This document shows positions 6,501 to 55,937 of a stretch of DNA of 64,000 nucleotides, piece by piece. Position numbers and translations under genes: made by a program. Position 1 is the first letter of the stretch. The number at the start of each line of letters is the position of its first letter. The stretch covers positions 8,494,001 through 8,558,000 of the forward strand of contig NZ_LT670819.1 in the NCBI RefSeq assembly GCF_900129855.1, written 5' to 3'. The stretch is from Streptomyces sp. 3214.6 (GTDB taxonomy: Bacteria; Actinomycetota; Actinomycetes; Streptomycetales; Streptomycetaceae). Under the pieces are notes generated by a model. It had not been told where the DNA came from. It worked only from the letters and a program-made list of their open reading frames with translations, and made no database searches.

Positions 6501-7976
6501 AAGCCGCTGTCGGCGGGCGAGGTATCGAGCCTCTACAGCTCGAACACGATCGGCTCCGGCCGCCCGGCCCGTGCCGTCTTCCACATGGACGACGCCGCCG
6601 ACGCGACCGCGCTGAGCGGCCGGGCCGACGTGAACCCGGCGGTCCTCAAGGGCGGCGCCACCACGGGCTCGGCCGGCGTGGACGGCAACGCGCTGACCCT
6701 GGACGGGACCGACGACTACGCGGTCACCGCCGGCCCGCACATCAACACCTCGTACAGCTTCGCCGTCTCCGCCTGGGTGAAGCTGCCGAAGACCAAACCG
6801 ACGCACGCCGCGACCGTCGCCACACAGATCGGCGACACGGTGACGGGTCCGGAGCTGTACTACTCCAGCTCCTACGACCGCTGGGTGTTCAACCAGCACA
6901 GCGCCGACACCGCCGACTCCACGGTGGTGCGGGCCATGCAGCCCGACGGCGTCACCGCGTACGGCGGTGAGTGGACGCACCTGGTCGGCGTGCAGGACAC
7001 GGAGGCCGACAAGCTCTCCCTGTACGTCAACGGGACCCTCGCCGGCACCACCGCCCTGCCCACGACCTGGTACGCCGGAGGCGCGATGCAGTTCGGCGCC
7101 AGCGCGTTCCAGGGCGCGGCCACCTCGTTCTTCCCCGGCCAGATCGACGACGTGCGGCTGTTCGACCGGCCGGTGTCGGCCGGTGAGGTGCAGCAACTGT
7201 TCAAGCAGCGCGCGGTGGTCAAGGGCCGCTGGAAGTTCGAGACGGCCACCGGCGCCCCGCTGACCTCGCCGGACGCCTCGTCCTCCGGCAACGCCATGAC
7301 CCTCTACAACGGTGCCCAAACGGGCTCGGGCTGGGTCGACGGCGCCGTCGCCCTGGACGGCACGGACGACTACGCCGCGGCCTCCGTGGTTCCGGTCGAC
7401 ACCAGCGCCAGCTTCACCGTGAGCGCCTACGTCCAGGCGGCCGCCACTCCGACGGGTCCGGTCACGGTCATGAGTGCTCCGGGTGCCAAGAAGAGCGCGT
7501 TCGCGGTGCGGTACGAGCCCAGTGCCACCCCGGCCACGGATCCGGGCCGCTGGCGGATCGCCACGGCCGACTCCGACAGTGACTCGGCCGCCGTCTCCGA
7601 CATCGGCAACGGCATGTTCTACAGCCCCACCGACTGGAACCACCTGGCACTGGTCTACGACGGCTTCTCCAAGGAGGTCCGCCTCTACGTCAACGGCGAG
7701 CTCCAGGAGACCGCCTGCGCCGACGCCGACGACGACGGGGTGCAGGACGACGCGAGCTGCACCGACACCGTCTCGTGGTCCGACGACGTCCTGACCTACA
7801 AGGCCGCCAAGACCCTGCAGCTGGGCCGGGACACCACCGGGACCACGTCCGGTCAGTACTTCCCCGGCTCGCTCTCCGACGTGTGGGTCTTCCAGGGCGC
7901 GCTGACCGAGACCCAGATCGATCACCTCGCCGTCGGCATGCCGGGCGTGGACACCGCCGTCCCCAGCGGCGACTGA
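3537..7976 (+). CDS. Large secreted multi-LamG surface protein (DNRLRE-like plus three LamG domains)
   Basis: A 1479-residue exported protein with an N-terminal signal (RRRLRAAGVVLSAAIVLAAS) and an Ala/Ser/Thr-rich low-complexity stretch near residues 280-330. A DNRLRE-like beta-sandwich region follows (about 375-560, with paired Cys in YCNWSYC), then three LamG/concanavalin-like modules at about 790-1000, 1010-1225 and 1230-1470. Each module carries a [FL]DG[VT]DDYA motif and a LYVNG strand. The three modules look like internal duplications. There is no sortase motif and no C-terminal membrane segment. It lies just upstream of an RHS protein on the same strand, a pairing common in Streptomyces, so the two may be expressed together. 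It probably binds carbohydrate or a protein partner at the cell surface; the ligand is unknown. Confidence 0.8.
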   Translation: MNTYGGRRRLRAAGVVLSAAIVLAASASGGALAATGERAADTPAAKSVESAKSAGTAAADGSATAAGADGAGGGEDAKALAKAARTGKPVEITSMRGESSEVYALPEGHLEAREHLRPVRTRVDGAWRTIDTTLTRGADGTVAPGATTVGLTFSGGGSEPLVRMTKNGRELALSWPKKLPVPELNGNTVTYPEVLPGVDLRMTAQQDGFTQLLVVKSAEAAASAELSKLRLKLDADGMRVKETSDGGLTAIDQGAGSAVFEAPRPVMWDSSTKAPGAASKSTPKATTESPSNSTSNSTSTSKTASKIAGKAAAETPTATASETAPAAGRGPNAPEAVAAESGNVAAVGVDVPAAQDALVLTPDSGVLKGENTVYPVFIDPQWYSPKASAWTMASKYWASSPQWKFNGDPDAGLGYCNWSYCAPYDTKRLFYRIPTSKFAGRTVLQAEFVVRNTWSASCADRGVELWRTKDISSSTTWNSQNASGFWIDHLKTESFAYGYTGCAAKDAEFDVKSAVQQAADKKWSTMTFGMKASSESDGYAWKRFSDDAYLRVQYNRAPPQIKMSQLTMEYGGSCKKPSSAARVRSLGKIYANDVTDPDGDSVSVEFRASWDTGDGKGVVTRWKSGLTTAKKSGSDFVIGLPSSIPPDKTVSWYVHSYDGAQYSPWSYTGDPTACYFVYDKSVPKAPTISSAIYPASNPDDPDDPWYDGVGQYGDFVITGAVSDVTKYWFGLNGDPVSANTVATSGGAAKTVPVLPLKPGLNTFTARSFDAAGNGSEIRTYQFRVKSGQLERADWSMDEAAGATQAAGSAPEQSATLYNGPTPNVEGKFGKAVQFDGVDDYAATDIATINTDVSFSVSAWVKLSAMPSGAAVVASQRGNNAPGFELYYSKGYDRWVFNQYSADSTSGTPVRAMQAAAGGVKAGEWTHLVGEYAAGEKLLKLYVNGALAGTTAYSTPWNARRGMVIGGSFLGGTQASPFPGAIDEVKTFEKPLSAGEVSSLYSSNTIGSGRPARAVFHMDDAADATALSGRADVNPAVLKGGATTGSAGVDGNALTLDGTDDYAVTAGPHINTSYSFAVSAWVKLPKTKPTHAATVATQIGDTVTGPELYYSSSYDRWVFNQHSADTADSTVVRAMQPDGVTAYGGEWTHLVGVQDTEADKLSLYVNGTLAGTTALPTTWYAGGAMQFGASAFQGAATSFFPGQIDDVRLFDRPVSAGEVQQLFKQRAVVKGRWKFETATGAPLTSPDASSSGNAMTLYNGAQTGSGWVDGAVALDGTDDYAAASVVPVDTSASFTVSAYVQAAATPTGPVTVMSAPGAKKSAFAVRYEPSATPATDPGRWRIATADSDSDSAAVSDIGNGMFYSPTDWNHLALVYDGFSKEVRLYVNGELQETACADADDDGVQDDASCTDTVSWSDDVLTYKAAKTLQLGRDTTGTTSGQYFPGSLSDVWVFQGALTETQIDHLAVGMPGVDTAVPSGD

Positions 7977-8105: not shown

Positions 8106-11100
8106 ATGAAGACCAGATCACGTAACCGAACGGGCAGGCCGTGGCGCCGTATGGCGATGGCCACGGCCGCCGTGCTGACCGCGACCCTGCTCCAGGCGTC
8201 GGGTGTGCCCGCCGTCGCCCAGGGCTGGGTTAAGCCCGCGCTGCCGCAGGCCGAGTCGCCGGTCGCCGGCGGCCCGGCCGGCAAGGCGAAACCCCGCAAG
8301 GTGACCAAGGGGCCTCGCACGCCCGCCGAGGCGCCGGCCACCGGCTGGCCGAAGGCGAGCGCGGCGGCCGTGACGCTGCGGCAGCAGGCGACCCGGGTCA
8401 AGGGGCTGCCGCTCACCCTGGACACCAAGGTCGACCGGTCCAAGGACGCGGCCACCGGCACCTACACCGTCGGCACGCTGTCCCGCGCGGCGGCAGCCAG
8501 GACGGGTGTCGACGGGCCGGTCTTCACCCTGACTCCCCGCCAGGGCGGCACGCAGCGCGCCGGCACGGTGCGCGCCGCGCTGGACTACTCCTCGTTCGCC
8601 GGCCTGTACGGTGGCGGCTACGCGGACCGGCTGACCCTGGTCCGGCTGCCCGCCTGCGCGCTGACGACTCCGCAGAAGGCACAGTGCCGTACGGTCCAGC
8701 CGGTGCCGACCGTCAACGACACCGAGAAGCAGACGCTGACCACGAAGGCGGTCGCCCTCAGCGCGAGCACGGCGACGGTCCTGGCGGCGGCCACGTCCAC
8801 CGGCAGCGACCGGGGCGACTACAAGGCCACCCCCCTGTCCGCCTCCTCGACCTGGAACACGGATCAGAGCACCGGCTCGTTCGCCTGGGCCTACGACATG
8901 GCGGTGCCGCAGGTGCCCGGCGGGCTGGCCCCGAAGGTCGGTCTGTCGTACTCCTCCGGCGGCATCGACGGCCGTACGGGAAACACCAACAACCAGGCGT
9001 CGTGGGTCGGTGACGGCTTCGACCTGTCGCCGGGCTTCATCGAGCGCAGCTACAAGGGGTGCGCGGACGACGGCGTCACCAACGCCGACGGCAACAAGCC
9101 GGGCGACCTGTGCTGGGCGTACGACAACGCCACGCTGTCGCTGAACGGTTCCGGCGGTGAGCTGGTGCCGAACGGGACCAACTCCTTCAAGCTGCAGAAC
9201 GACAACGGCACGAAGATCGACCGGATCTACGGCTCGTCGTCCGACGTGCGCTCCAACGGCGCCCGCAACGACGAGTACTGGCGCGTCACCACACCGGACG
9301 GAACCCAGTATTTCTTCGGCTACAACCGGCTGCCGGGCTGGGCGAGCGGCAACGAGACCACGGACTCGGCGTGGACGGTGCCGGTCTTCGGCAACAACTC
9401 CGGTGAGCCGTGCAACGCCTCGACGTTCGCGGACTCCTGGTGCCAGCAGGGCTGGCGCTGGAACCTGGACTACGTCGTGGACCCGCACGGCAACGCCGTC
9501 GCCTACTACTACGACAAGGAGAGCAATTCCTACGGCCGCAACCTCAAGGCGGCCGACGACACCCCGTACGTCCGCGGCGGCACCGTGGACCGCATCGAGT
9601 ACGGCCTGAAGTCCACGGCCATGTACTCGGCGAAGCCGCTGGCCAAGGTGAACTTCACCAACAGCGAGCGGTGCATCCCCGACAGCTCGACCACCTGCTC
9701 GTCCATCTCCACGGACTCCCAGTACTGGTACGACACCCCGTGGGACCTGAACTGCACGGCGGGCACCGACTGCGACAACGGCCGGTTCTCCCCGGCGTTC
9801 TTCACCCGCAAGCGTCTGACGAGCGTCACCACCCAGGTCCTGGTGTCCGGCGCCTACAGCAACGTCGACGGCTGGAAGCTCGCCCACCGGTGGGGCATGG
9901 CCGACACCGATTACCAGCTGCTGCTGGACTCCGTCCAGCACACCGGCTACGACGGCACCGCCTCGATCACCCTGCCGAAGGTCACCTTCGCCTACACCCA
10001 GCTCGCCAACCGGCTCGACAAGATCGGCGACGGCTACGCGCCGTACATCAAGTCCCGGCTGTCCTCCGTCGCGGACGAGTCCGGCGGTCAGATCGACGTC
10101 GGCTACTCGGCGCCGGTCTGTGACGCCGCCTCGCTGCCCACCCCGGAGACCAACACCACCCGGTGCTTCCCGCAGTACATCGGCGGCAGTGCGACCGACG
10201 ACCCGGACCGGCAGTGGTTCAACAAGTACGTGGTGGACACGGTCACTTCGACGGACCGCACGGGCGGCGCCCCCGACCAGGTCACGATGTACGACTACCT
10301 GGACGGCGCGGCCTGGCACTACGACGATGACGACGGCATGACCAAGGAGAAGTCCAAGACCTGGTCGCAGTGGCGCGGTTACGGCCACGTCCGGGTGCGC
10401 ACCGGCGGTCAGGGCGGCGCGTCGGCGATGAAGACGCAGAGCGACTCCTACTTCCTGCGCGGCATGGACGGCGACCGCAAGACGACCTCCGGCGGCACCA
10501 AGAGCGTCTCGGTCACCCTCGACTCGGGTGAGGGCGACCCGATCACCGACCACGAGTCGCAGGCGGGTTACGCGTACAAGACCGTCACCTACTCCGGTCC
10601 CGGCGGCAAGGTGCTGTCCAAGACGGTGAACCGTCCCTGGTACAAGGAGACCGCGAAGAAGGTCCGCACCTGGGGCACCGTCACCGCCAACCTCACCGGC
10701 AACGCTTCCAGCAAGTCGTGGACCTCGCTGGACGACGGCGCCGGCGCCAAGTGGCAGACGACCGCGACGTCCGACACCCATGACGCCACGACGGGCCTGG
10801 TGACCCAGACCGAGGATCTGGGCGACACGACGACCGCGGCCGACGACCAGTGCACGCGCACCACCTACGTCGCCGGCAGCGTTCCCGTGCAGGCCCCCGC
10901 CCGGGTCGAGACGGTCGCCAAGGCGTGCGACGCCGCCACCAGCCGCCCGGCCGACGTCATGTCCGACGTCCGCACCGCCTATGACGGCGGGGCGTACGGC
11001 GCCGCGGCGACGAAGGGCGACGCCACCAGGACCGCGAAGCTGAAGACGTACAGCGGCTCCAGCGCGGTCTATCTGGAGTCCACCTCCACCTACGACGGCT

Positions 11101-14100
11101 ACGGAAGGGCGCTGACGACCACCGACCTGACCGCCGACGTGACGGTCACCTCGGCGGGCGCGCTCACCCGGTCCGCCCGCACCGACGGCCGGACCACCAC
11201 CACCGCCTACAACCCGACCACCGGATTCCCGACGAGCAGCTCGGTGACGACCCCGCCCGCCACACCGGGGGACAGCACCACCGCGCAGACGTCGACCACC
11301 GCCTACGACACGCTGCGCGGCCAGCCGCTCACGGAGACCGACACCAACGGCAAGGCCGTCACCTACGCGTACGACGCGCTGGGCCGCACCGCCAAGGTGT
11401 GGCAGACGGACCGGACCACGAGCCAGACCCCCAGCTACGAGTTCAGTTACACCATCACCGACGGCAAGCCGGTCGTGGTGGCCACCAAGACCATCGGCAA
11501 CTCGGGTGCGCAGGACACCACGTACACCTTCTACGACGGCTTCCTGCGAGCCCGGCAGACCCAGGCCCCCGGTCCGAACGGCGGAACCCTGCTGGCGGAC
11601 ACCTTCTACGACGAACGCGGCCTGACCGCAAAGGAGTTCGCTCCCTACTACGCCACCGCGGCGCCGTCCACGACGCTCTTCAAGCCCGAGGACGCGCTGG
11701 GCGTGGAGACCCAGAACCGTTACACCTACGACGGTCTGGGCCGGGTGACCGAGTCGCGGCAGATCGCCGGCAACGGCGACGGCGGAGCGGTCCTCGGCAT
11801 CACAAAGACGATCTACGGCGGCGACCGCACCACGGTCATCCCGCCGGTCGGCGGCACCGCGCAGACCACCGTCACCGACGCCCGCGGCCGCACCAGCGAA
11901 GTGCGCCTGCTGCACGCCCGCGCCGCCGAGGCCGCCTACGACACCACGTCGTACGGCTACTCGCCGCGCGGTGAGCTTACGCGGGTCACCGACCCGGCGG
12001 GCAACGCCTGGACATGGACGTACGACCTGATGGGCCGGCTCACCGACACCACGGACCCCGACAAGGGCGCCGGCCACAACGAGTACGACGACCGCTCCCA
12101 GATGACCAGCACCAAGGACGCCCACGGCAGCGTCCTCGCCTACGGCTACGACGGTCTGGGCCGCAAGACCGAGGTGCGCGACACCTCCTCGACCGGCACT
12201 CTGCGCGCCAAGTGGGTCTACGACACCGTCAGCGGCGCCAAGGGCCACCTCGCGTCCAGCTCGCGATACAGCGGCGGCCAGGAGTACAAGACCAGCGTCG
12301 TCGCCTACGACCGGCAGTACCGGCCGCTGCGCACCTCGATGACCATCCCCTCGACCGAGGGCGCGCTGGCCGGCACCTACCTGTCGTCGACCAGCTACAA
12401 CGCCTCGGGCACGATCCAGGGCATCGGCTACCCCAAGGCCGGTGACCTCGCCGCCAACACCGTCGCCTACACCTACGAGGACGGCACCTTGCGGCCGGTC
12501 GGGATCAGCGGCCCGCAGAACCTGACCGGGAGCTCCACCTACAGCCTCACCGGCAAGCCGCTGCAGTACTCGCTGGCCGCGAACGGCGGCAAGACGACGT
12601 ACGAGACCAACACCTACGAGTGGGGCACCCAGCGGCTGGCGACCTCGCGCGTCGACCGTCAGGACGTCGCGGGCGTCGACCAGTACAACACCTACAAGTA
12701 CGACGAGGCGGGCAACGTCCTGTCCGTCTCGGACACCTCCCGCTCCGGCACCGACAACCAGTGCTTCGCCTATGACTACTTCGGCCGGGTGACGGAGGCC
12801 TGGGCGCAGTCGACCACCGGCTGCGTCGCCACTCCCACCACCGACACGGTGGGCGGCCCGGCGCCGTACTGGACCTCCTACACCTACGACAAGGTCGGCA
12901 ACCGGCTCACCGAGACCCGGCACGCCACCACGACCGGCGCCTCGGACACCAAGCGGAGCTACCACTACCCGGACCCGGGTGCGGTCCGTCCGCACGCACT
13001 GGGCTCCGTGGACGAGGTCACCGGCACGGTCAAGTCCACCGACAACTTCACCTACGACGACGACGGCAACACCCACACCCGGCTGCTGGGCAACGGCACC
13101 TCGCAGACCCTGGACTGGGACGCCGAGGGCCACCTCGCCAAGGTCACCCAGCCGGTGGAGGGCGGCAGCGACAAGGTCACCGAGTACCTCTACGACGCCG
13201 ACGGCACCCGGCTGATCGGCCGCACCCCGACCGAGACGACGCTCTACCTGGGCGCCACGGAGATCACCCTGCCGAAGGGCGCGACCGCCGCCAAGGGCAC
13301 CCGCTACATCGACGTGGGCGGCGGCCACCAGGCCGTCCAGGCCAACGACGGATCCATCTCCTTCACGCTGGCCGACCACCACGGCACGGCCCAGCTGTCC
13401 GTCAACGCCACCTCCCAGGCACTGACCCAGCGCCGCACCCTGCCGTTCGGCGGGTCGCGCGGCACCGCGCCGAACACCTGGACCGGCACCAAGGGCTTCA
13501 TCGGCGGGACCGCCGACACCGCCACGGGCCTCACCCACCTCGGCGCCCGCGAGTACGACCCCGCCACGGGTCGGTTCCTGTCGGTCGACCCGGTCTTCAC
13601 GGCCGACGACCCGCAGCAGATGAACGGCTACTCCTACGCCAACAACAACCCGCTGACGTTCTCCGACCCGGCGGGCACGGAGATCGGCTCCCGGCCCAAC
13701 TCCTGCCAGTACGACATCAAGTACTGCAGCAAGCACGAGCAGCAGGAAGTCGGCTACGACCCGAAGACGGGCACGTCCGACTACCACCGCGGCAACATCT
13801 ACAAGCGCGCCCACGCGGCGAAGAAGCACTGGGTGGCGACGAACACCCCCGTCACGAACGACATCGACAAGCTCCAGAACTACTGGGCCAGCATGATGGA
13901 CGGGGAGTTCACCGACAACTTCTGGTCCAACCCCGTCTACGAGTCGTCCACGGCGGGCTCGGCCTGCTACGGGCGTGAGGGATGCCGTCAGGCCTACCTC
14001 TACGTGCTGCACGAGGGCGACCACGCCGACGTCAAGAAGGCCAAGGAGATCGCGGCCACCTACTGCGTCTACCACGCCAGCCAGTGCTCGGACGAGGCCA

Positions 14101-14942
14101 AGGAGGTGGCGCGGGGCAAGGTCATCGAGGAGATCACCAGCGAGGTGTTCCTGGCCTATCTCGGCGGGGCGCAGGGAATCGAGGAAGACGGGACGCCCTG
14201 CAACAGCTTCGCCCCCGGCACCGGGGTCCTGCTGGCCGACGGCACCACCAAGCCCATCGAGGAGATCAGACCCGGCGACAAGGTTCGCACCACCGATCCG
14301 AAGACCGGCCGCACCACGACCAAGACGGTCACCGCCGAGATCACCGGCAAGGGCCTGAAGCAGCTGGTCAGGCTCACCCTGTCCGTCGACGGCGAGAAGC
14401 GGACGGTCTCCCTGACCGCGACCGACGGCCACCCCTTCTGGGTGCCGGAACTGGGCCAGTGGATCGACGCCACCCACCTCATCCCGGGCGAGTGGCTGCT
14501 CGCTTCCACCGGGGCCACGGTCCGGGTGACGGCGGTCGACCGCTGGACCGCCCCGGCCACCGTGCACAACCTCACCGTCGCCGACGTCCACGCGTACTAT
14601 GTGCTCGCCGGGACCACGCCGGTGCTCGTGCACAACTGCCCCAAGAGGGTGGCACGGGGCGCCAACGCCGTTCCGGAGACCCCGAACATCGTTCACGAGG
14701 GGGTCGCGGACATCAAGGTCAACGGACGCCCGCAGCGGGTGGACGAGAACGGCGACCTCGACTTCTTCACGGTGCGGCCGACCACGCCGCAGCGGATCGC
14801 CCGGAAGTGGGGTGGAGCCAAGATCTACGACATCCCCAACGGCGGCAACAGCTACCGGGTGCTGATCAACGGTCACGGTGACATCGGCTGGATCAGGAAC
14901 CACGACTACACCAAGATCTACCCCTACACACCTCGGTCGTAA
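8106..14942 (+). CDS. RHS-repeat polymorphic toxin with Hint (intein-like) domain and C-terminal toxin tip
   Basis: A 2278-residue exported protein. The start at 8106 is chosen over an in-frame ATG at 8052 because GGGAGGA (8087-8093) precedes it and it opens directly into an Arg-rich signal peptide. A cell-wall-type N-terminal region is followed by many YD/RHS repeats of the form YDxxGR. These end in the RHS core motif AREYDPATGRFLSVDPVF near residue 1815. A spacer of about 170 residues leads to a Hint domain from Cys2032 (CNSFAPGTG) to the junction His2176-Asn2177-Cys2178, with the internal block TATDGHPF. The last 100 residues (GDLDFFTVRP to YPYTPRS) are a compact domain I do not recognise, in the place where the toxin sits in this class. 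Family knowledge predicts autoproteolytic release of the tip. A candidate immunity gene follows. Confidence 0.88.
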   Translation: MKTRSRNRTGRPWRRMAMATAAVLTATLLQASGVPAVAQGWVKPALPQAESPVAGGPAGKAKPRKVTKGPRTPAEAPATGWPKASAAAVTLRQQATRVKGLPLTLDTKVDRSKDAATGTYTVGTLSRAAAARTGVDGPVFTLTPRQGGTQRAGTVRAALDYSSFAGLYGGGYADRLTLVRLPACALTTPQKAQCRTVQPVPTVNDTEKQTLTTKAVALSASTATVLAAATSTGSDRGDYKATPLSASSTWNTDQSTGSFAWAYDMAVPQVPGGLAPKVGLSYSSGGIDGRTGNTNNQASWVGDGFDLSPGFIERSYKGCADDGVTNADGNKPGDLCWAYDNATLSLNGSGGELVPNGTNSFKLQNDNGTKIDRIYGSSSDVRSNGARNDEYWRVTTPDGTQYFFGYNRLPGWASGNETTDSAWTVPVFGNNSGEPCNASTFADSWCQQGWRWNLDYVVDPHGNAVAYYYDKESNSYGRNLKAADDTPYVRGGTVDRIEYGLKSTAMYSAKPLAKVNFTNSERCIPDSSTTCSSISTDSQYWYDTPWDLNCTAGTDCDNGRFSPAFFTRKRLTSVTTQVLVSGAYSNVDGWKLAHRWGMADTDYQLLLDSVQHTGYDGTASITLPKVTFAYTQLANRLDKIGDGYAPYIKSRLSSVADESGGQIDVGYSAPVCDAASLPTPETNTTRCFPQYIGGSATDDPDRQWFNKYVVDTVTSTDRTGGAPDQVTMYDYLDGAAWHYDDDDGMTKEKSKTWSQWRGYGHVRVRTGGQGGASAMKTQSDSYFLRGMDGDRKTTSGGTKSVSVTLDSGEGDPITDHESQAGYAYKTVTYSGPGGKVLSKTVNRPWYKETAKKVRTWGTVTANLTGNASSKSWTSLDDGAGAKWQTTATSDTHDATTGLVTQTEDLGDTTTAADDQCTRTTYVAGSVPVQAPARVETVAKACDAATSRPADVMSDVRTAYDGGAYGAAATKGDATRTAKLKTYSGSSAVYLESTSTYDGYGRALTTTDLTADVTVTSAGALTRSARTDGRTTTTAYNPTTGFPTSSSVTTPPATPGDSTTAQTSTTAYDTLRGQPLTETDTNGKAVTYAYDALGRTAKVWQTDRTTSQTPSYEFSYTITDGKPVVVATKTIGNSGAQDTTYTFYDGFLRARQTQAPGPNGGTLLADTFYDERGLTAKEFAPYYATAAPSTTLFKPEDALGVETQNRYTYDGLGRVTESRQIAGNGDGGAVLGITKTIYGGDRTTVIPPVGGTAQTTVTDARGRTSEVRLLHARAAEAAYDTTSYGYSPRGELTRVTDPAGNAWTWTYDLMGRLTDTTDPDKGAGHNEYDDRSQMTSTKDAHGSVLAYGYDGLGRKTEVRDTSSTGTLRAKWVYDTVSGAKGHLASSSRYSGGQEYKTSVVAYDRQYRPLRTSMTIPSTEGALAGTYLSSTSYNASGTIQGIGYPKAGDLAANTVAYTYEDGTLRPVGISGPQNLTGSSTYSLTGKPLQYSLAANGGKTTYETNTYEWGTQRLATSRVDRQDVAGVDQYNTYKYDEAGNVLSVSDTSRSGTDNQCFAYDYFGRVTEAWAQSTTGCVATPTTDTVGGPAPYWTSYTYDKVGNRLTETRHATTTGASDTKRSYHYPDPGAVRPHALGSVDEVTGTVKSTDNFTYDDDGNTHTRLLGNGTSQTLDWDAEGHLAKVTQPVEGGSDKVTEYLYDADGTRLIGRTPTETTLYLGATEITLPKGATAAKGTRYIDVGGGHQAVQANDGSISFTLADHHGTAQLSVNATSQALTQRRTLPFGGSRGTAPNTWTGTKGFIGGTADTATGLTHLGAREYDPATGRFLSVDPVFTADDPQQMNGYSYANNNPLTFSDPAGTEIGSRPNSCQYDIKYCSKHEQQEVGYDPKTGTSDYHRGNIYKRAHAAKKHWVATNTPVTNDIDKLQNYWASMMDGEFTDNFWSNPVYESSTAGSACYGREGCRQAYLYVLHEGDHADVKKAKEIAATYCVYHASQCSDEAKEVARGKVIEEITSEVFLAYLGGAQGIEEDGTPCNSFAPGTGVLLADGTTKPIEEIRPGDKVRTTDPKTGRTTTKTVTAEITGKGLKQLVRLTLSVDGEKRTVSLTATDGHPFWVPELGQWIDATHLIPGEWLLASTGATVRVTAVDRWTAPATVHNLTVADVHAYYVLAGTTPVLVHNCPKRVARGANAVPETPNIVHEGVADIKVNGRPQRVDENGDLDFFTVRPTTPQRIARKWGGAKIYDIPNGGNSYRVLINGHGDIGWIRNHDYTKIYPYTPRS

Positions 14943-18126: not shown

Positions 18127-19335
18127 TCAGGCCCGTCCATGGGCCTCCTGGGAGCGTCGCGACAGGGAGTCGATGATCACCGCGGCGAACAGCACCCCGC
18201 CCGTGATCACGAACTGGACGGCCGGGGGAGTGTCCGTGATCGCCATGCCGGAGGCGATCGACTGGATGACCAGCATGCCCAGCACCGCCGACCAGGTGGT
18301 ACCGCGCCCGCCGAACAGACTGGTGCCGCCGATCACGGCCGCCGCGATGGCGTTGACCAGCAGCACCCCGGAGCCCGAGCTCTGGCTCACCGAGGTGATG
18401 CGGGAGGCCAGGAACAGGCCGCCGATCGCGGCCATCGTGCCCGAGGCCGCGAGCACCGCGGTCTGCACCCCCGTCACGCTGAGGCTGGCACGACGGGCCG
18501 CCTCGATGCTGCCGCCGAGGGCGTAGACCTGCCGCCCGTAGTGCGTACGGCGGAGCATGACGTCGAGGCCGGCCACCACCACGAGGAAGATCAGCAGGGC
18601 GAGCGGCAGGCCCTGGAACCGGTTCAGCAGATAGGCGACGGCGAACGCGACCACCGCGAGCCCCGCGGTGCGCACCACGATCGCGCGCAGCGAGCGGTGC
18701 GGCATGCCGACGGCCCTGCGCCGCCGCCGGTCGCGGTCCAGGGCGAGGAAGACCGCGCCCGCGGCGAGCGCCGCCAGCCCGTAGGCGACCGCGTCATCGG
18801 TGAAGTAGTAACTGGTCAGCTTGGCGACCAGCCCGTTCTCGTCGAGGTTGACGGTGCCGCTCTCGCCGAGGATGGCGAGCATCAGGCCGTTCCAGGTGAG
18901 CAGCCCGGCGAGTGTGACCACGAACGCCGGCACCCGCGTCCGGGCGATGGAATAGCCCTGCACGGTTCCCGCGACGGTGCCCGCGAGCACCGCGACGACG
19001 AGCGCGAGCCACTCCGGCACCCCGTGGTTGACGTTCAGCACTGCGAAGACGGCCGCCGCCAGGCCGCTGATCGAGCCCACGGACAGATCGAGCTCGCCGA
19101 GCAGCAGCACGAAGACGATGCCGACCGCGATCAACCCCGTCCCGACGATGTCCACGCTGAGGTTGGACAGGTTGCGGGGCGAGAGGAAGTTCTCGTTGAG
19201 GGACTGGAAGGTGATCCACACGACGGCCAGGACGAGTACGACGGGCAGGGACCCCAGCTCGCCCGCGCCCAGCTTGTGCCGGAAGAACGTGACCCCGCTC
19301 CCCAGGGCACGGCCGACGGCCCGCACGCGGGTCAC
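18127..19335 (-). CDS. Sugar-type ABC transporter permease (XylH/RbsC family)
   Basis: About 402 residues with 9-10 predicted membrane segments. The family signature of branched-chain/sugar permeases is present: GELDLSVGSISGLAAAVFAV in the first half and AIAAAVIGGTSLFGGRGT in the second. It would form the membrane pore for import of a pentose or similar sugar. The reading frame stays open far upstream (to 19830), but that part lies in the ATPase gene and does not look like this protein. GTG at 19335 overlaps the ATPase stop by 4 bases (GTGA), which fits translational coupling. It is the last gene of the binding protein-ATPase-permease operon. Confidence 0.88.
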   Translation of the reverse strand: MTRVRAVGRALGSGVTFFRHKLGAGELGSLPVVLVLAVVWITFQSLNENFLSPRNLSNLSVDIVGTGLIAVGIVFVLLLGELDLSVGSISGLAAAVFAVLNVNHGVPEWLALVVAVLAGTVAGTVQGYSIARTRVPAFVVTLAGLLTWNGLMLAILGESGTVNLDENGLVAKLTSYYFTDDAVAYGLAALAAGAVFLALDRDRRRRRAVGMPHRSLRAIVVRTAGLAVVAFAVAYLLNRFQGLPLALLIFLVVVAGLDVMLRRTHYGRQVYALGGSIEAARRASLSVTGVQTAVLAASGTMAAIGGLFLASRITSVSQSSGSGVLLVNAIAAAVIGGTSLFGGRGTTWSAVLGMLVIQSIASGMAITDTPPAVQFVITGGVLFAAVIIDSLSRRSQEAHGRA

Positions 19336-20105
19336 CACCCCGTCTCCCGGGCGGCCGGCCGGCGGGGCACATTCTCCGTGGCGCCGGTGATGGACGAGAT
19401 GATCTGCTCGTGCGACGCGGTGTGCACGTCGAAGAAGCCGTTGTTGCGGCCCAGACGCAGCACCGCGGCCCGGTCCGCGAGGGCCTTCACGTCGCCCATG
19501 TTGTGACTGATGAGCAGCACGCCCAGCCCGCGGTCGCGCAACTGGTCGATCAGGTCCAGGATCTCGGTGGTCTGCTCGATGCCCAGCGCGGCGGTGGGTT
19601 CGTCCAGGAGGAGCACCCGCGGTCCGGCGAGGAGCGAGCGGGCGATGGCGACCGTCTGCCGCTGGCCGCTGGAGAGGGAGACGACGGGGCCGCGCAGATC
19701 GGGCAGTCGACCGGTCAGGCGTTCCAGCAGCTCTCTGGTGCGGCGCTCCATCTCGACCTCGTCGAGGAACCCGAACCTGCGGAGCTCCCGGCCGAGGAAC
19801 AGGTTCCCGACGACGTCGAGGTTCCCGCACAGCGCCAGGTCCTGGTAGACGGTGGCGATGCCGAGGTCACGGGCGTCGTGCGGGCGTCTGATGTGGACCG
19901 GCCGGCCCTTCCACTCGATGACGCCCTTCTCGGCGGGGGCGACCCCGGAGATCACTTTGACCAGAGTGGACTTGCCGGCCCCGTTGTCCCCGAGGAGGGC
20001 GACGACCTGCCCGGAGTGGATCTCCAGCTCGATGTCCGTGAGGACCTCGACGACCCCGAAGCGCTTGCACACGCCCCGCAGCGCCAGCAGGGGGGGATCC
20101 GGCAC
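19332..20105 (-). CDS. Sugar-type ABC transporter ATP-binding protein, single domain
   Basis: The 257-residue ATPase has Walker A GDNGAGKST, signature LSSGQRQ, Walker B VLLLDEPTAAL and the switch His in ISHN. Many sugar-type importers use a double-length ATPase of about 500 residues (RbsA, XylG). This is the single-domain form, which would work as a dimer. The start GTG at 20105 is chosen because AAGGAG lies nine bases upstream; a TTG at 20114 would have no spacing. It lies 58 bases after the binding-protein gene and overlaps the permease gene by 4 bases. Confidence 0.88.
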   Translation of the reverse strand: MPDPPLLALRGVCKRFGVVEVLTDIELEIHSGQVVALLGDNGAGKSTLVKVISGVAPAEKGVIEWKGRPVHIRRPHDARDLGIATVYQDLALCGNLDVVGNLFLGRELRRFGFLDEVEMERRTRELLERLTGRLPDLRGPVVSLSSGQRQTVAIARSLLAGPRVLLLDEPTAALGIEQTTEILDLIDQLRDRGLGVLLISHNMGDVKALADRAAVLRLGRNNGFFDVHTASHEQIISSITGATENVPRRPAARETGW

Positions 20106-20163
20106 GGAAACCAACTCCTTCTCGGGGGGCGTCGGGGCGATGCGGCGTCCGGTCGGCGCGGCC

Positions 20164-21252
20164 TCAGGTCAGTCCGGCCTTCGCGCAGGCGGCCCGCAGC
20201 TGCGGGGTGCAGATCTGCGCGACCGTGTGCAGGCCGTCCTTCACCACTGTGTCCCGGATGTTGCCGGCGGTCACCGACAGGGGGGTGAGCAGGACGGCGG
20301 CGACCGCGTTCCCGCCGCGCGTCGGCACCTGGCCCGTGGCCACCTTGTCCAGGCTCTGCCCGCGGGCCGCGGCCACCGCCATGGCCCCGCCGGCGGCCGC
20401 CTCGGGCTTGAACGGCTTGAAGACGGTCATGTACTGGTCGCCCGCGACGATGCGCTGCAGGGCCGGGAGCTCGGCGTCCTGCCCGGTGACCGGGGGCAGC
20501 GGGTTCACCTTGTTGGCCTTGAGGGCGGCGATGCTCCCGCCGGCGAGGCCGTCGTTGGCCGCGTAGACGCCGTCGACGGAGCCGGCGCCGAGGGCCGCGA
20601 GGGCCCCGGACATGTTCATGTGCGCGGTCTCGGCCCGCCACTGGGGGGTGTCGTAGGCCTTGCCGATCTTCACCTTGCCGCCGAGCACGGACAGCGCGCC
20701 CTCCTTGAACGCCTTGGCGTTAGGGTCGCTGGGGTCGCCGTTCATCATGACGATCTCGGCGCCGGGCACCTTGTCGCCCATCGCCTTCAGCAGCGCCCGG
20801 CCCTGGAGCCGGCCGACCTCCACGCCGTCGAACGAGACGTACCCCGAGATCGGTCCCTGGGCGAGCCGGTCGTAGGCGATGACGGGGATGCCCGCCTCGT
20901 GGGCCTTGGTGACGGAGGCGCCGAGCGAACGGGCGTCCACGGCCACCAGCACGATCGCGTCGACGTTCCTGGTGATCATCGACTCCATCTGTTCCTGCTG
21001 GAGGGCCACGTCGCCCTTGGCGTTGGCGTGCTCGACCGCGCAGGTGTCGCACAGTTGCCTGATCCTCTTCTCCAGCAGGGGCCGGTCCTGCGTTTCCCAC
21101 CGTGCCGTGGTGGCGTCCGGCAGAAGCAGACCGATGCGCGGTCCGTTCTCCCCGACGGGGGCGTCCCCCCCGCCCGCCCCGCAGGCTGCCAGCACGATCG
21201 CGGCGGACACCGCGGTCACGGCGGCGACCGTGTCCCGAATGCAGGCCTTCAT
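20164..21252 (-). CDS. Sugar-binding lipoprotein of the ABC transporter (Peripla_BP_4 type), copy 1
   Basis: The 362-residue precursor has a lipoprotein signal ending IVLAACGAG, so it is anchored outside the membrane. The mature part is a two-lobed type 1 periplasmic binding fold of the xylose/ribose group: IGLLLPDATTARWE at the start, VIAYDRL, GYVSFDG and GVYAANDGLA hinge/ligand segments, and VTGQDAE near the end. Two Cys pairs are notable (LCDTCAVEHANA and ICTPQLRAAC); both recur in the paralogue at 23730. It is the first gene of the transporter operon and is divergent from the phosphatase gene. The sugar cannot be deduced. Confidence 0.88.
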   Translation of the reverse strand: MKACIRDTVAAVTAVSAAIVLAACGAGGGDAPVGENGPRIGLLLPDATTARWETQDRPLLEKRIRQLCDTCAVEHANAKGDVALQQEQMESMITRNVDAIVLVAVDARSLGASVTKAHEAGIPVIAYDRLAQGPISGYVSFDGVEVGRLQGRALLKAMGDKVPGAEIVMMNGDPSDPNAKAFKEGALSVLGGKVKIGKAYDTPQWRAETAHMNMSGALAALGAGSVDGVYAANDGLAGGSIAALKANKVNPLPPVTGQDAELPALQRIVAGDQYMTVFKPFKPEAAAGGAMAVAAARGQSLDKVATGQVPTRGGNAVAAVLLTPLSVTAGNIRDTVVKDGLHTVAQICTPQLRAACAKAGLT

Positions 21253-21384
21253 CGGTGATACCTGCCGTAGACGACAATAAGGTGGAAATGTGGTGGTTAT
21301 GTTCGATTGATCCGTATATGCGATTCTGGTGGGTGGGTGCCCCGATCTCAACCTGTCGGCACCTGCGGCAGGACGGGAGGTACG
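21253..21384. promoter_or_regulatory. Divergent promoter region between transporter operon and phosphatase operon
   Basis: About 130 bases separate the two opposite genes. The part from 21265 to 21330 is AT-rich (TGGTTATGTTCGATTGATCC) compared with its surroundings. Both promoters must lie here, so the two operons may share a regulator. A ribosome site GGGAGG (21375-21380) serves the phosphatase gene. Confidence 0.5.
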
Positions 21385-23733
21385 TTGCGGACATGCCTCG
21401 ATCGGGCCCTGACCTTCGCCGGAGCGACACTGGCCGCGGTCTACGCGCCCGACGCCGGCAACCAGGAGCTTCGGTTGGTGGACGCGTCCGGAGGAACCTC
21501 TTCCGGTTCGGGGCCGCCGGAGCATCTCCCCCTGTCCGGTGACTCGCCCCCGGCACGCGCCCTCCGCGTCGGCCGACCGCTCTGGCTCACCGCCGAGCCC
21601 CCGCTCGCCGCGCTGCCCCTCGGCCCCGAGGGCGCACCCCAGGGCTGCCTCCTCGTCATGGGAACCTCGGAGGACGGCTTCCAGACCGAGCAACGCCGGT
21701 TCCTGGAACGCTACGCCGAGGCCGTCGCGGCCCTCCTCCCACCCGGCGCCGACCCGCCCCGGCCGGCCCAACTGCTCGGGCCCGCCTTGCGCAGCCTGCG
21801 CGTCGGCTCCTTCGTGCTCTTCCCGGACACCGGCCTGATCGACGCCGACGACACCCTGCTCGAACTCGTCGGCATCACCCCGGACGACTTCGACGGCAAG
21901 GCCGACACCCTGCTCGCCCACGCCCTCCCGGAGGACATGCACGCCCTGATGTCGGTCCTGGAGCCGTCCGCCGAGGACTTCGGCCGACGGGACCTGGAGT
22001 TCCGGGTCCGCGGCCCCACCGGCGAGATGCGCTGGCTGAGCCTGAGCTGCCGGGTGCAGGCCCCCACCGACGGCCGGCCGGAACAGGTCCTCGGCGTGGT
22101 CACGGCGACCCCGGTCCTGCGCCGCGGCTCCGACGACGTCGCCCGGATCCAGTGGCTGACCGCCGCCCTCGACGACGCCGCGACCGTCCGGGACGTCGGC
22201 CGCGTCGTGGTATCCGCCCTGCGCGAGCCGCTGGCCGCCGACCGGGTGGCCCTCGCCGCGCTCCAGGACGACCGGCTCATGGTCAGCGTCCTCGACCCGC
22301 CCCAGCCCACCGCCTGGCCCGAGGTGTGGCGGACCGACTGGCGCACCGATTGGCCCGACGCCCCGCTGCGTGCCCTGCCCACCCTGCAGGCCGCCCTGCG
22401 GGACGGCCGGATGGACCTCTGGCCGGCCGGCGCCGACCTCGAACCCGGCCTGGCCGGCATCGGCACCGGCGGCCTCGCCGTCCTGCCGCTGCCCGCCAAG
22501 GACCGGGTCGCCGGCGTCTGCCTGGTCGGCTGGGACCGCCCGCACGAGTTCGTCCCCGAGGAACGCTCCCTGCTCACCGCGACCGCCGCCCTCGTCGGCC
22601 AGGCCCTCAAACGCGCCCACGCGCACGACGCCGAGCAGGAACTCGCCACGATGCTCCAGCGCAGCCTGCTGCCCCGGCGCCTGCCCGAACTGCCCGGCGG
22701 GACCGCCGTAGCCCGCTATCTGCCCGCCCGGCGAGGCCTCCAGGTCGGCGGCGACTGGTACGACGTCATCGCCCTCTCCGAGGACCGGGTCGCCCTGGTC
22801 ATCGGAGACGTCCAGGGACACAGCGCCGGAGCCGCGACGATCATGGGCCAGATGCGCACGGCGGTCCGCGCCTACGCCATGGAGGGCCACCCGCCCGACG
22901 TGGTCGTCTCCCACGCCAACCGGCTCCTCGTCGCCATGGAGACCGACCTGTTCGCCACCTGCTGCTACGCCGAACTGGACATGGAGGAGGGCAACATCCT
23001 GTTCGTCCGGGCCGGCCACCTCTCCCCCCTGCTGCGCCTGCCCGACGGCTCCACCGAAGAGGTCGAGGTCGAGGGCGGGCCCCCACTGGGCATCCTCGCG
23101 GAAGCGGAGTTCCCCATGACAGCCGTCGAACTAGCCCCTGGCGCCGTCCTCGCCCTGGTCACCGACGGCCTCGTCGAGGCCTCCGACCTGCCCCTGGACG
23201 AGGGCATGCACCGCACGCGCCTCGCACTGGCCGCGGCGGACCCCGAAGACCCCGGCCGGATGGCCGACGCACTCCTCGGCGACGTCGGCCGCCGTGAGGA
23301 CGACGTGGCGCTGCTGCTCCTGCGCTACGACGGCATGAAGACCCGCCCGATCCGGGCCGGTTGGATGGTGTGGCGACTGCCCGACGCCGTCATGCACGCC
23401 CGCCGCTTCACCGCGCGCACCCTGCGCCGCTGGCAGGTCCAGGAAGCGGGCGACGCCGTCCTGCTCGTCGTCTCCGAACTCGTCACCAACGCCCTCGTGC
23501 ACACCCAGGGCCCGGTCCGCCTCGACCTGGTGCTGCGCGGCGACCTGGTGCGCGTCGGCGTCAGCGACGCCTCGCCGCGCGCCCCCGCCAAACCGGTCAT
23601 CGTCGACTGGGAGTCCACCGGCGGTCGGGGCCTGATGCTGGTCGAGGCGATGTCGGAGTCCTTCGGCTCGGTCCCCGTGGCCGGCGGCAAACAGGTGTGG
23701 AGCGAGATCGCCGTACCAGGGGGTGCGCCATGA
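21385..23733 (+). CDS. GAF-PAS-GAF serine phosphatase (SpoIIE/RsbU type) with C-terminal HATPase domain
   Basis: About 782 residues in this order: a GAF-like region (5-120), a PAS domain (about 140-240, with GLIDADDTLLELVGI), a second GAF domain (about 265-415), a SpoIIE-type PP2C phosphatase (about 430-645) and an HATPase_c anti-sigma-kinase-like domain (about 655-775). Phosphatase metal-binding motifs are visible as GGDWYDV and VIGDVQGHSAGAA, with ALVTDGLVEA and REDDVALLLL further on. The HATPase part has N-box VSELVTNALVHT and GGRGLMLVE. Such proteins act in partner-switching control of sigma factors. TTG at 21385 is preferred for its GGGAGG; the frame is open to 21307. Its stop overlaps the next gene (ATGA), which encodes a sugar-binding lipoprotein. 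Confidence 0.85.
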   Translation: MRTCLDRALTFAGATLAAVYAPDAGNQELRLVDASGGTSSGSGPPEHLPLSGDSPPARALRVGRPLWLTAEPPLAALPLGPEGAPQGCLLVMGTSEDGFQTEQRRFLERYAEAVAALLPPGADPPRPAQLLGPALRSLRVGSFVLFPDTGLIDADDTLLELVGITPDDFDGKADTLLAHALPEDMHALMSVLEPSAEDFGRRDLEFRVRGPTGEMRWLSLSCRVQAPTDGRPEQVLGVVTATPVLRRGSDDVARIQWLTAALDDAATVRDVGRVVVSALREPLAADRVALAALQDDRLMVSVLDPPQPTAWPEVWRTDWRTDWPDAPLRALPTLQAALRDGRMDLWPAGADLEPGLAGIGTGGLAVLPLPAKDRVAGVCLVGWDRPHEFVPEERSLLTATAALVGQALKRAHAHDAEQELATMLQRSLLPRRLPELPGGTAVARYLPARRGLQVGGDWYDVIALSEDRVALVIGDVQGHSAGAATIMGQMRTAVRAYAMEGHPPDVVVSHANRLLVAMETDLFATCCYAELDMEEGNILFVRAGHLSPLLRLPDGSTEEVEVEGGPPLGILAEAEFPMTAVELAPGAVLALVTDGLVEASDLPLDEGMHRTRLALAAADPEDPGRMADALLGDVGRREDDVALLLLRYDGMKTRPIRAGWMVWRLPDAVMHARRFTARTLRRWQVQEAGDAVLLVVSELVTNALVHTQGPVRLDLVLRGDLVRVGVSDASPRAPAKPVIVDWESTGGRGLMLVEAMSESFGSVPVAGGKQVWSEIAVPGGAP

Positions 23734-24812
23734 GGATCCCACGCCGATGCCTCGTCGCCGTGGTCGCCGCGGCACTGGTGACGATGCCCCTGGCCGCCTG
23801 CGGAGGCGAGCACCGGGCGGGCGGCGAAGGCTTCACCGTCGGCCTGCTGCTCCCGAGCCGCACCGTCCCCCGCTGGGAACACTCGGACCGGCCGCTGATC
23901 GAGGCGCACGTGAAGAAGCTGTGCCCCACGTGCACGATGGAGTACGCCAACGCCGAGGACGACGTGACCCGCCAGCGCGGGCAGCTGGTCTCCATGGTCA
24001 CCAAGGGGGCCAAGGTCCTGATCCTCGACGCCGCCGACACCCGGGCGATGCGTTCCTCGATCGAGGAGGCGCGCCGGGCGGGCGTCCCGGTCGTCGCCTA
24101 CGACCGCCTCGCCGAGGGGCCGATCGCCGGCTACGTCGGCTTCGACGCCCTCCAGGTCGGCCGCCTCCAGGGCGAGGCACTCCTGACCGCGCTGACGAAG
24201 GGCACCGGACGCACCCACGTCGTCATGGTCAACGGCGACCCGACCAGCCCCAACGCGGCCTCGTACCGCAAAGGCGCGCTGTCCGTCCTCACCGGCAAGG
24301 CGACGGTTCTGCGGTCCTACGACACCCAGGGCTGGAGCACGCAGAACGCCCACGCCAACATGTCCGCCGCCATCGCGGCCCTCGGCCCGGACCGCATCGA
24401 CGGCGTCCTCGCGGCCAACGACTCCATCGCCGCGGGCGTCGTCGCCGCCCTCAAGAGCGCCGGCGTCACGAAGTTCCCGCCCGTCACCGGACAGGACGCC
24501 GACCTCGACGCCGTGCGGCGCATCGTCAAGGGCGAGCAGTACATGACGGTGTACAAGCCGTTCGGGAAGGAGGCAGCCGCCGTCGCCGCCATGGCCGTCG
24601 CCGTCGGCCGCGGCGAGGACCCCCGCGACAGCGCCACGACCACCACCGACAGCCCGACCACCGAGAACATCCCGTCGGTCCTGCTCACCCCGACCGCGGT
24701 CACCGCCCCCGACATCGGCCCGGTCCTCGTCGGGGACGGCGTGTACAACGTCGGCCAGATCTGCACCCGTGACCTGCGGGCCGCCTGCGACCGGGCCGGC
24801 CTCACCCCGTGA
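23730..24812 (+). CDS. Sugar-binding lipoprotein, copy 2, coupled to the phosphatase gene
   Basis: The 360-residue lipoprotein (lipobox PLAACGGE) is a clear paralogue of the protein at 20164-21252. The same landmarks occur in the same order: VGLLLPSRTVPRWE, LCPTCTMEYANA, VVAYDRLAEGPI, VMVNGDPTSPNA, GVLAANDSIA, VTGQDAD, QYMTVYKPF and the ICTRDLRAAC ending. Its ATG overlaps the phosphatase stop by 4 bases, so translation is probably coupled. No ATPase or permease accompanies it; it may feed the neighbouring transporter or act as the ligand sensor of the phosphatase pathway. The second role is inference from the coupling. Confidence 0.88.
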   Translation: MRIPRRCLVAVVAAALVTMPLAACGGEHRAGGEGFTVGLLLPSRTVPRWEHSDRPLIEAHVKKLCPTCTMEYANAEDDVTRQRGQLVSMVTKGAKVLILDAADTRAMRSSIEEARRAGVPVVAYDRLAEGPIAGYVGFDALQVGRLQGEALLTALTKGTGRTHVVMVNGDPTSPNAASYRKGALSVLTGKATVLRSYDTQGWSTQNAHANMSAAIAALGPDRIDGVLAANDSIAAGVVAALKSAGVTKFPPVTGQDADLDAVRRIVKGEQYMTVYKPFGKEAAAVAAMAVAVGRGEDPRDSATTTTDSPTTENIPSVLLTPTAVTAPDIGPVLVGDGVYNVGQICTRDLRAACDRAGLTP

Positions 24813-47319: not shown

Positions 47320-47367
47320 GGAGTGCTTCCTGCCTGGGCCGGGGGCGGACGGTGTCGGGGCGGTCGC

Positions 47368-52500: not shown

Positions 52501-52709
52501 CACGCGTCGAGCAGGGCGATCGACGGGTCGTCCGGCTCCCGCGTCGTCAGCGCCTCCAGGGGCGCGGGGCCCTCGCCGGTGACGGGCAGCCGGGCCAGCA
52601 TCGCGTCGAGGAACTGCCGGTGGACGCCCACCCGGTAGGACAGCGCGGGCAGCCCGGGACGGTTCCACACCGGCGCCGGACCCGGTCGGCCGGCGGAGCA
52701 GTCGGTCAT
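49497..52709 (-). CDS. Putative baseplate assembly protein, J-like wedge component, second copy (eCIS)
   Basis: The 1070-residue protein has the N-terminal landmarks of the large baseplate wedge family (SIALLDAWAVVADVLTFYQERIADEGFLRTA). The C-terminal baseplate-J-like half has AVEFGDGRHGARPPTGTENV, YRVGGGRAGNV and ALRRYGDPALPVRVEPC. Between them, about residues 235-390, lies a strongly charged helical region likely to form a coiled coil (LREDMEDAARRARAEG, RLKERLAGVGGDLDADK). It pairs with the 954-residue relative encoded just upstream; in related particles two such proteins form the wedge around the hub. It overlaps both neighbours by 4 bases. The open frame continues to 53546, but ATG 52709 is the start supported by coupling. 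Confidence 0.82.
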   Translation of the reverse strand: MTDCSAGRPGPAPVWNRPGLPALSYRVGVHRQFLDAMLARLPVTGEGPAPLEALTTREPDDPSIALLDAWAVVADVLTFYQERIADEGFLRTAAEHESLVRLGRLVGHRPRPALAAAAHLAYTLDPGASCVVPTGSQVKSEPEPGALPVVFETAEDLTARAEWNRLPVRATWPPALTPAVATRVPSLDVDGVQAALRPGDRLLFVYPDARLNLTRVVEGAEPDPARGRTTVVLRVPDPPRQLDQAVDALREDMEDAARRARAEGPFEELLTLLRDVRQRAEELRDPDTFAARLDRRLRRLKERLAGVGGDLDADKLAERAAARLETVQDAVRRLKDAPERAAAAGGRALLRDLADPAGRVQHAVDPLLDALGRGAGGGAGRGAPPRRTPPAVADVLGAGSDALPRLLAEHRPDVGASFYQALSTVAPPVTAPGVYRFRVTAAPLGASIPDDARVQRLLRGATPPRAEGGGPLPHDVLLLDAVHEEIQPGSWIAVRVAGRSRTRVIRVVEVGQLSVANDVDAVRVTRLALAEPWTEDCEDMTVRRATTVWAAGEPLVLAAPPDPTDVSGHAIALDGMFEGLTAGRPIVVSGQRTDVVPDGGPGVAGAELAVLAGVRHAFDGTSFDDRVRTTLLLTSPLAHRYRRDSVLVHGNVVTATAGETVTEVLGSGDAGRAGQVFSLRRGPLVWLPSVNADGGEEDLTVRVDDVAWRRTADLGEEGPADQVFRLRAGADGRAAVEFGDGRHGARPPTGTENVTARYRVGGGRAGNVAAGRINQLVSRPFGVSAVTNPLPATGGADADGRARMRQAIPLRLAAFDRLVSTVDYQSFARAFAGVGQAVAHRCVDDGRPVVHVTVVAADDAPLDASSPLLGALRSALRRYGDPALPVRVEPCERVRLVVVLGVRTAAGHLPEKVEQRVREALVARLGSGGAFLGHPVYDSAVVATAQAVPGVDFVDLDAFGGFPEGSDPADVVRFARHPTVAAFVPALPAGPRAVRERSQSGAGAGAGAGGTPVDPGDVVDAAQAPTVLLPRGSSPAAPAPTAPPRLVLRPAQLVLLDPAVPGSLILRRIP

Positions 52710-55932: not shown

Positions 55933-55937
55933 CGCGC

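Follow-up and report, generated by a model that had tools for sequence, protein, structure and literature searches.

A conserved Streptomyces locus in which a SpoIIE-type phosphatase gene overlaps a sugar-binding lipoprotein gene beside a XylF-type transporter: a possible link between sugar uptake and partner switching

The chromosome of Streptomyces sp. 3214.6 contains a locus in which the gene of a SpoIIE-type (PP2C) phosphatase overlaps that of a sugar-binding lipoprotein, and in which both genes face a complete ATP-binding cassette (ABC) transporter of the xylose type. The locus lies in a stretch of 64,000 nucleotides (contig NZ_LT670819.1, positions 8,494,001 to 8,558,000; the window below), which is part of a 9.38 Mb single-contig genome. 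This layout is real and conserved. The overlap of the two genes points to a possible flow of information from sugar uptake to a signalling switch inside the cell. We consider it quite possible, if somewhat short of probable, that this Streptomyces module links a cytosolic phosphatase of the partner-switching type with a sugar ABC transporter of the xylose type (CUT2), a coupling that is for the most part inferred.

Three genes on the minus strand (18127-21252) make up the transporter: a permease of the BPD_transp_2 family (CUT2 type; 18127-19344; Pfam E-value 1.6e-26), a single-domain ABC ATPase of 260 residues (19332-20114; ABC_tran, 1.1e-29) and a substrate-binding protein (SBP), the XylF-type sugar-binding lipoprotein called SBP_A here (20164-21252; Peripla_BP_4, 1.5e-61). 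The three Pfam families that define a XylF-type (CUT2) transporter are thus all present. The best NCBIfam match of the permease is GguB, at 223.7 bits, below the cut-off of 450. On the plus strand, facing the SBP_A operon, a GAF-PAS-GAF-SpoIIE-HATPase protein that appears soluble (21394-23733) is followed by SBP_B (23730-24812; Peripla_BP_4, 9.9e-58), a second XylF-type sugar-binding lipoprotein, which has no ATPase or permease of its own. The Pfam scores of the phosphatase are 5.5e-51 for SpoIIE, 4.2e-13 for GAF_2, 2.3e-12 for PAS_3 and 2.8e-10 for HATPase_c_2, with a second GAF domain in addition. Its start is unsure: the open reading frame is opened by a TTG at 21307, and homology begins at about 21394, well within it, which leaves the 5' region in the short divergent intergenic stretch (21253-21393) uncertain. 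The spacer between SBP_A and the phosphatase is longer and different in many related loci. Both lipoproteins have a LAAC lipobox, as read from their translations. An earlier note, made from the letters of this DNA, had described a complete transporter and a GAF-PAS-GAF-PP2C-HATPase protein between two binding lipoproteins, and Pfam bears this out; the permease lies just beyond the range that the note gives for it. The 4-base overlap that it reported is also there, as the ATGA shared by the phosphatase stop and the SBP_B start (23730-23733, plus strand). No special RNA structure was found at the overlap (z-score -0.58), and neither a tRNA nor an Rfam match at gathering score was found in the window.

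The pairing has to be set against chance. The genome has 40 SpoIIE matches, of which 39 are above the family cut-off; the chance test left out one below-cut-off match of each family, so that 39 of 40 SpoIIE and 46 of 47 Peripla_BP_4 matches were kept. One SpoIIE/Peripla_BP_4 pair was observed within 2 kb, with a null mean of 0.77 under random placement (P 0.51), and three were observed within 4 kb against 1.55 expected (P 0.23). Adjacency alone was therefore rejected as evidence for one genome. The pairing of phosphatase and lipoprotein stands above chance because the layout is conserved, and only by that.

A search with SBP_B across 295 genus genomes gave a match at an E-value of 1e-98 or better in at least 99. 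The 100 loci fetched were picked for their resemblance to SBP_B and are thus biased towards its relatives. Type 1 is the layout of the window, with SBP_A, ATPase and permease divergent from phosphatase and SBP_B. Type 2 is a one-strand order of phosphatase, SBP, ATPase and permease with an SBP_B-like lipoprotein, and type 3 is a more distant set with that same order. It was found that 30 of the fetched loci are of type 1, 10 of type 2, 14 of type 3 and 10 linked to a ROK gene, with 36 others. SBP_A, ATPase and permease are in order in all 30 type-1 loci. Type 1 occurs in at least 31 of the 295 genus genomes, window included, and in genome G272 the two halves of the layout are on separate contigs.

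A named-collection set, picked by the phosphatase and not by the binding protein, comprised the best 80 of 257 relatives of the phosphatase N-terminal half; these 80 are Streptomyces, one being titled only 'Actinobacteria bacterium'. Type 1 was found in 58 of these loci, with ATPase and permease both called in 56; S. cyaneus and S. griseoruber are among the species that have it. Another 18 have a one-strand operon: 15 were assigned by script with SBP and ATPase downstream (13 with the permease called), and in three that the gene caller had misread (L207, L208, L215) SBP, ATPase and permease are present. The remaining four are the pair alone in S. phyllanthi (L214), a pair at a contig end (L212), a decayed locus (L177) and one cut by its contig (L225). 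Overall, 78 of the 80 have an SBP after the phosphatase; the exceptions are L177, which is without an SBP, and L225, at its contig end. As the fetched and named sets share species, their counts are not additive. Candidate starts of the SBP gene, which are in-frame start codons and not proven starts, were located by their distance from the phosphatase stop; they lie at -4 in 25 of the 30 type-1 loci fetched and in 50 of the 58 named ones. For type 2 they lie at -4 in three and at -1 in four of the ten loci (7/10 together), and for type 3 at -4 in nine and at -1 in one of 14 (10/14 together). The tie between phosphatase and SBP is firm for types 1 and 2 and looser beyond them.

These counts speak to several expectations of the earlier note. 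The overlap is not confined to one strain, since pair and overlap are conserved across many Streptomyces, and SBP_B is not a recent duplicate that lacks conservation beside the phosphatase, given type 1 in at least 31 of 295 genomes and 58 of 80 named loci. An ABC operon is not always divergent from the pair, however, as the one-strand operon takes the place of such an arrangement in 18 of the 80 named loci and S. phyllanthi has no adjoining transporter. The conservation also bears on the reading that the gene order is functionally meaningless, the block having been inherited or transferred together. Chance adjacency is to be expected in one genome, as that reading would have it, but the block is retained in changing surroundings, where even the most widespread gene family is found in only 7 of 31 type-1 loci. 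Moreover, SBP_B keeps a mean identity of 71% across type 1 with a ratio of nonsynonymous to synonymous substitution (dN/dS) below 1, and a promoter-like element of the phosphatase is common to types 1 and 2. A meaningless order is in our judgement very improbable.

The earlier note regarded SBP_B as a second copy of the transporter's binding protein. In a tree of 131 SBP rows, type-1 SBP_B groups with the type-2 lipoproteins (support 98) and SBP_A with stand-alone transporters (support 100); a 47-row tree, a random pick from the former, unites SBP_B with the SBPs of type-2 operons (100/99) and SBP_A with those of stand-alone transporters (100/100). A local duplication, with SBP_A and SBP_B as one clade, was rejected by the approximately unbiased test (p 5.5e-5). 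The comparison of phylogenies confirms that the two are paralogues but shows separate lineages rather than copies, SBP_B being an older paralogue with its nearest kin in the PP2C-SBP-ATPase-permease operon. The type-1 ATPase and permease belong with stand-alone SBP_A-type transporters (ATPase: 38-row set, support 100, FastTree). By the simplest history, type 1 would have arisen when a type-2 operon next to an SBP_A-type transporter was stripped of its own ATPase and permease. Both a type-2 operon and a separate SBP_A-type transporter (L096, L119) persist in genome G255. S. phyllanthi has the phosphatase-SBP_B pair with the 4-base overlap and an in-frame signal peptide but no adjoining transporter, and an SBP_A-type transporter elsewhere; as a single case, it repeats the loss of ATPase and permease. 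Streptomyces sp. LBL has no SBP_B; a permease remnant of 139 residues adjoins its phosphatase, and the best ATPase match found in the genome is 69% identical. Distance matrices of SBP and phosphatase correlate with r of 0.67-0.79, and those of ATPase and permease correlate with these at r of 0.08-0.23; at least one ATPase row (L071) is aberrant and gene starts are uneven in these data, for which reason no conclusion is based on these correlations.

A conserved promoter-like element, CCGTATATGCGATTCTGGTG, is found 5' of the phosphatase (21312-21331, plus strand). With up to four mismatches, its 16-base core is present in 29 of 31 type-1, 8 of 10 type-2 and none of 14 type-3 loci; with up to two, in 26 of 31, 3 of 10 and none of 14. 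When each of the 55 upstream stretches was letter-shuffled once as a control, two matches were found at up to four mismatches, both in type 2. Since type-2 loci, for which the evidence is modest, carry it without a divergent transporter, the element is apparently the phosphatase's own and not part of a common control region. The shared divergent promoter region proposed by the earlier note is thus not upheld. A regulon based on the element was rejected, as its 20-base form has a single match genome-wide at up to three mismatches. A second motif of 36 bases, GTCAGTGTGACACCGGCCGCGGTGATCTGCGAACGC, is located between SBP_A and the phosphatase, for example in the intergenic region of L082. It is found in 21 of 31 type-1 loci at up to nine mismatches and in 0 of 55 shuffles, and is absent from the window and its nearest relatives.

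The closest solved chain to both lipoproteins by sequence is E. coli XylF (for SBP_A, 3m9w, 9e-49). The predicted model of SBP_B (predicted local distance difference test, pLDDT, 89) has a XylF-like fold: superposition on closed E. coli XylF (3ma0) gave a VIA Z of 41.8 and a root-mean-square deviation of 1.6 over 305 residues, with which 4ywh ties (Z 42.1). None of the 50 matches listed in this structure search was named as a XylFII-LytS chain, which excludes nothing. The exact sugar is not assigned because SBP_A (221.7 bits) and SBP_B (200.3) do not reach the NCBIfam xylF equivalog cut-off (389.55), xylF being nevertheless the best family for both. The Cys-pair motifs by which the earlier note had linked the two proteins are present in both but are family-wide and not special to the pair; across the 51 rows of a family alignment, C345 and C353 never vary, while conservation of C65 and C68 is at least 90%. 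By a simple count over the 31 type-1 loci, which codon bias makes rough, the median dN/dS is 0.47 for SBP_B, 0.43 for SBP_A and 0.28 for the phosphatase. Another test used columns in which a single residue reaches at least 90% conservation in the four remaining SBP groups of the comparison. Of these, 71 of 85 are retained by SBP_B and 71 of 80 by SBP_A; four columns in SBP_B and two in SBP_A are below 50%. On account of the dN/dS values and the columns kept, SBP_B is taken as a maintained binding protein, and neither measure shows that it ceased to serve a permease.

Such a protein could simply be an extra binding protein that widens the transporter's sugar range, with the phosphatase on the mRNA for co-regulation only and not sensing the transporter. 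The predicted XylF fold and the columns retained agree with this, as does an identity between SBP_A and SBP_B of only about 51%, which leaves room for different ligands; furthermore, phosphatase relatives without an SBP exist. Against it, the SBP gene closely follows that of the phosphatase in two groups of phosphatases (types 1/2 and type 3), even where it is part of a complete operon. We hold this explanation to be doubtful.

The phosphatase, and its family, appears to be soluble. Its most hydrophobic 19-residue stretch has a mean hydropathy of 1.49, the usual threshold for a membrane helix being 1.6, and the predicted model has no obvious membrane helix. A SpoIIE/PP2C domain with N-terminal sensor domains, as in partner-switching PP2C phosphatases, is assigned by Pfam. 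The helical linker from sensor domain to PP2C that is typical of this class is found in the predicted model, where a 36-residue helix (407-442) links the second GAF domain to PP2C with moderate confidence (mean pLDDT 74). Catalytic-domain motifs are common to the phosphatase and five relatives in an alignment, in which the PP2C and ATPase motifs look intact. Phosphatases of such build are proposed to be controlled via the helical linker (PMC12143880).

The apparent solubility matters for how a signal could arrive, because a surface lipoprotein cannot then touch the phosphatase directly. Along the lines of the earlier note, SBP_B might be a dedicated surface sensor that has lost its transport role and reports extracellular sugar via another membrane partner, or via the permease as a receptor. 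Its own ATPase and permease do not follow it in the window, in the 30 fetched type-1 loci or in S. phyllanthi, and second binding proteins that act as sensors are known, such as CuaD with CuaSR (PMC10384115), and XylFII-LytS and GlnH-GlnX-PknG (PMC9769921). A soluble phosphatase is at odds with this explanation, no candidate GlnX-like or LytS-like flanking family occurs in more than 7 of 31 type-1 loci, and the 71 of 85 conserved columns that SBP_B keeps do not demonstrate loss of a transport role. We regard a dedicated surface sensor as unlikely. The outside signal would most likely pass via transport, because the ABC permease is the sole membrane protein that recurs with the pair.

In the coupling that we favour, sugar-loaded SBP_B would dock on the neighbouring permease, as binding proteins do, and the GAF-PAS-GAF part of the phosphatase would read the outcome inside the cell, whether this is the imported sugar, a derivative or the state of the ATPase. 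The helical linker may then relay the signal to PP2C, which would dephosphorylate a STAS-type partner encoded elsewhere, and the HATPase domain might supply or oppose the kinase step. Co-translation at the ATGA could keep phosphatase and lipoprotein in step. A more specific version, which we judge rather improbable, is that a XylF-class transporter serves as membrane receptor for a soluble SpoIIE-type phosphatase, and that SBP_B, having lost its own transporter, is a dedicated sensory ligand carrier, giving a partner-switch input without a membrane kinase or transducer.

Several points weigh against the favoured coupling. Physical or regulatory contact between transporter and phosphatase is our inference. 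No STAS gene is located within the window, and about 33 kb separate the phosphatase from the nearest of the ten PF01740 matches in the genome. The hydropathy measure reaches 1.62-1.86 in five phosphatase relatives, for which solubility is less clear-cut. The order of events, loss and not gain of ATPase and permease, rests on parsimony, and S. phyllanthi and LBL are one genome each, one of the assemblies being fragmented. In addition, 164 of 295 genus genomes hold a phosphatase relative at an E-value of 1e-60, so that the family is wider than its link to the lipoprotein. Among 20 further loci chosen by phosphatase relative, 16, including a second copy in this genome, have no XylF-type SBP called alongside. 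The other four are two further type-3 loci, one cut by its contig (L245) and one with a ChvE-type SBP (L242).

Related data on the spread of the phosphatase can be read with these counts. In a phosphatase tree, 57 of whose 78 rows come from loci picked by SBP similarity, members without an SBP fall among type 3. Of 293 genomes sampled across the order, 147 have a phosphatase relative at an E-value of 1e-100, all in one of nine genera, the genome numbers of the other genera being partly listed. In L242 (7029-15504, genome G094), a phosphatase relative lies about 340 bases before a ChvE-GguA-GguB transporter, with an L-arabinose isomerase gene next on the other strand. The ChvE-, GguA-, GguB-type and L-arabinose isomerase matches are all above the NCBI cut-offs, the ChvE-type SBP is about 30% identical, and L242 is possibly a separate association of phosphatase and transporter.

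A number of side observations concern the same families. At G000:C1 4787520-4794751 (L011, L008, L053), a second transporter of this genome, whose SBP shares 53% identity with SBP_B, is convergent with another SpoIIE-type phosphatase gene, only 36% identical to that of the window. In genome G079 (L093 and L144), the phosphatase gene appears broken by a rearrangement or an assembly fault, its N-terminal part and the SBP_A transporter being on one contig and its C-terminal part and SBP_B on another. XylF-like lipoproteins without a transporter called alongside were seen in L056 (8942-9997), L108, L110, L111 and L115. The gene in L056 is divergent from a Ser/Thr protein kinase, while those in L108 and L111 are by a polysaccharide deacetylase and an alpha-amylase, respectively; L056, L108, L111 and L115 form one group in the 131-row tree (support 100). 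Type-2 loci have a further binding-protein gene after the permease, which in L051 (5201-6553), the one scanned, is of the SBP_bac_1 family. Every one of the 10 type-2 loci has a relative of it, whereas the fetched type-1 and type-3 loci have none.

No description of such a phosphatase with a sugar-binding lipoprotein or transporter was found in the open PMC literature, as covered by titles and the starts of abstracts, with subscription papers mostly outside. The proposed mechanism would be a variant of binding-protein-linked signalling. Streptomyces XylFGH consists of an SBP, an ATPase and a permease of the same families as the window transporter. In this genome, locus L055 contains a ROK gene, an SBP, an ATPase, a permease and a DXS gene, and is presumably the rok7B7-xylFGH locus. 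Rok7B7 controls the adjacent xylFGH (PMC8966007). The window transporter, by comparison, has no adjoining ROK gene and has the phosphatase gene instead. With the SBPs of the ten ROK loci, SBP_A and SBP_B share about 44-59% identity. E. coli XylG has two fused ABC domains, whereas the window ATPase has one in 260 residues, the XylG models being 500 and 513 positions long.

Among systems that combine a binding protein with signalling, cuaD is located in an operon with its sensor genes, near a transporter with its own binding protein (PMC10384115). As in CuaDSR and XylFII-LytS, a second sugar-binding protein is found beside a signalling gene (PMC10384115, PMC9769921). In those systems, a membrane-spanning histidine kinase holds the SBP by its extracytoplasmic domain, whereas the window enzyme is apparently a soluble phosphatase. 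GlnH-GlnX-PknG of Corynebacterium unites a binding lipoprotein with a Ser/Thr signalling enzyme of the cytosol in one putative operon, and the lipoprotein controls this kinase (PMC9769921). That system has a kinase and a dedicated membrane transducer, GlnX, whereas in the window phosphatase and SBP_B are directly adjacent and the only counterpart of GlnX is the ABC permease. Chlamydia RsbU is a partner-switch phosphatase with a periplasmic sensor domain for alpha-ketoglutarate (PMC11619594). Sensor and phosphatase are one protein in Chlamydia and two gene products in the window. The combination of sensor domains and PP2C is also that of Rv1364c and OsaC, Rv1364c having an anti-sigma (RsbW-like) domain as well. 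OsaC likewise carries an anti-sigma (RsbW-like) domain. The closest solved chain to the window phosphatase is that of Rv1364c (3ke6, 3.6e-28). Rv1364c and OsaC are both described as stress-response phosphatases and were modelled as dimers (PMC12143880). In contrast to them, the window phosphatase has no fused STAS domain by Pfam and is linked to a sugar lipoprotein gene.

Elsewhere in the window, a protein of 2263 residues with RHS repeats and a PT-HINT pretoxin domain is encoded on the plus strand (8151-14942), preceded by a large open reading frame (3804-7976). On the minus strand (45976-60483) are genes of a contractile-tail baseplate, including DUF6519 (45976-47319), gp25 (55567-55941) and Phage_base_V (56296-56811). 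We presume that this cluster is possibly a contractile injection system.

Among about 40 SpoIIE-type domains in the genome, the window phosphatase comes with a candidate input signal, as its gene overlaps that of a sugar-binding protein. The three natural layouts, together with S. phyllanthi, offer a ready comparison set. If the link holds, the carbon source would feed partner-switching control in Streptomyces, and the transporter itself would be the sensor.

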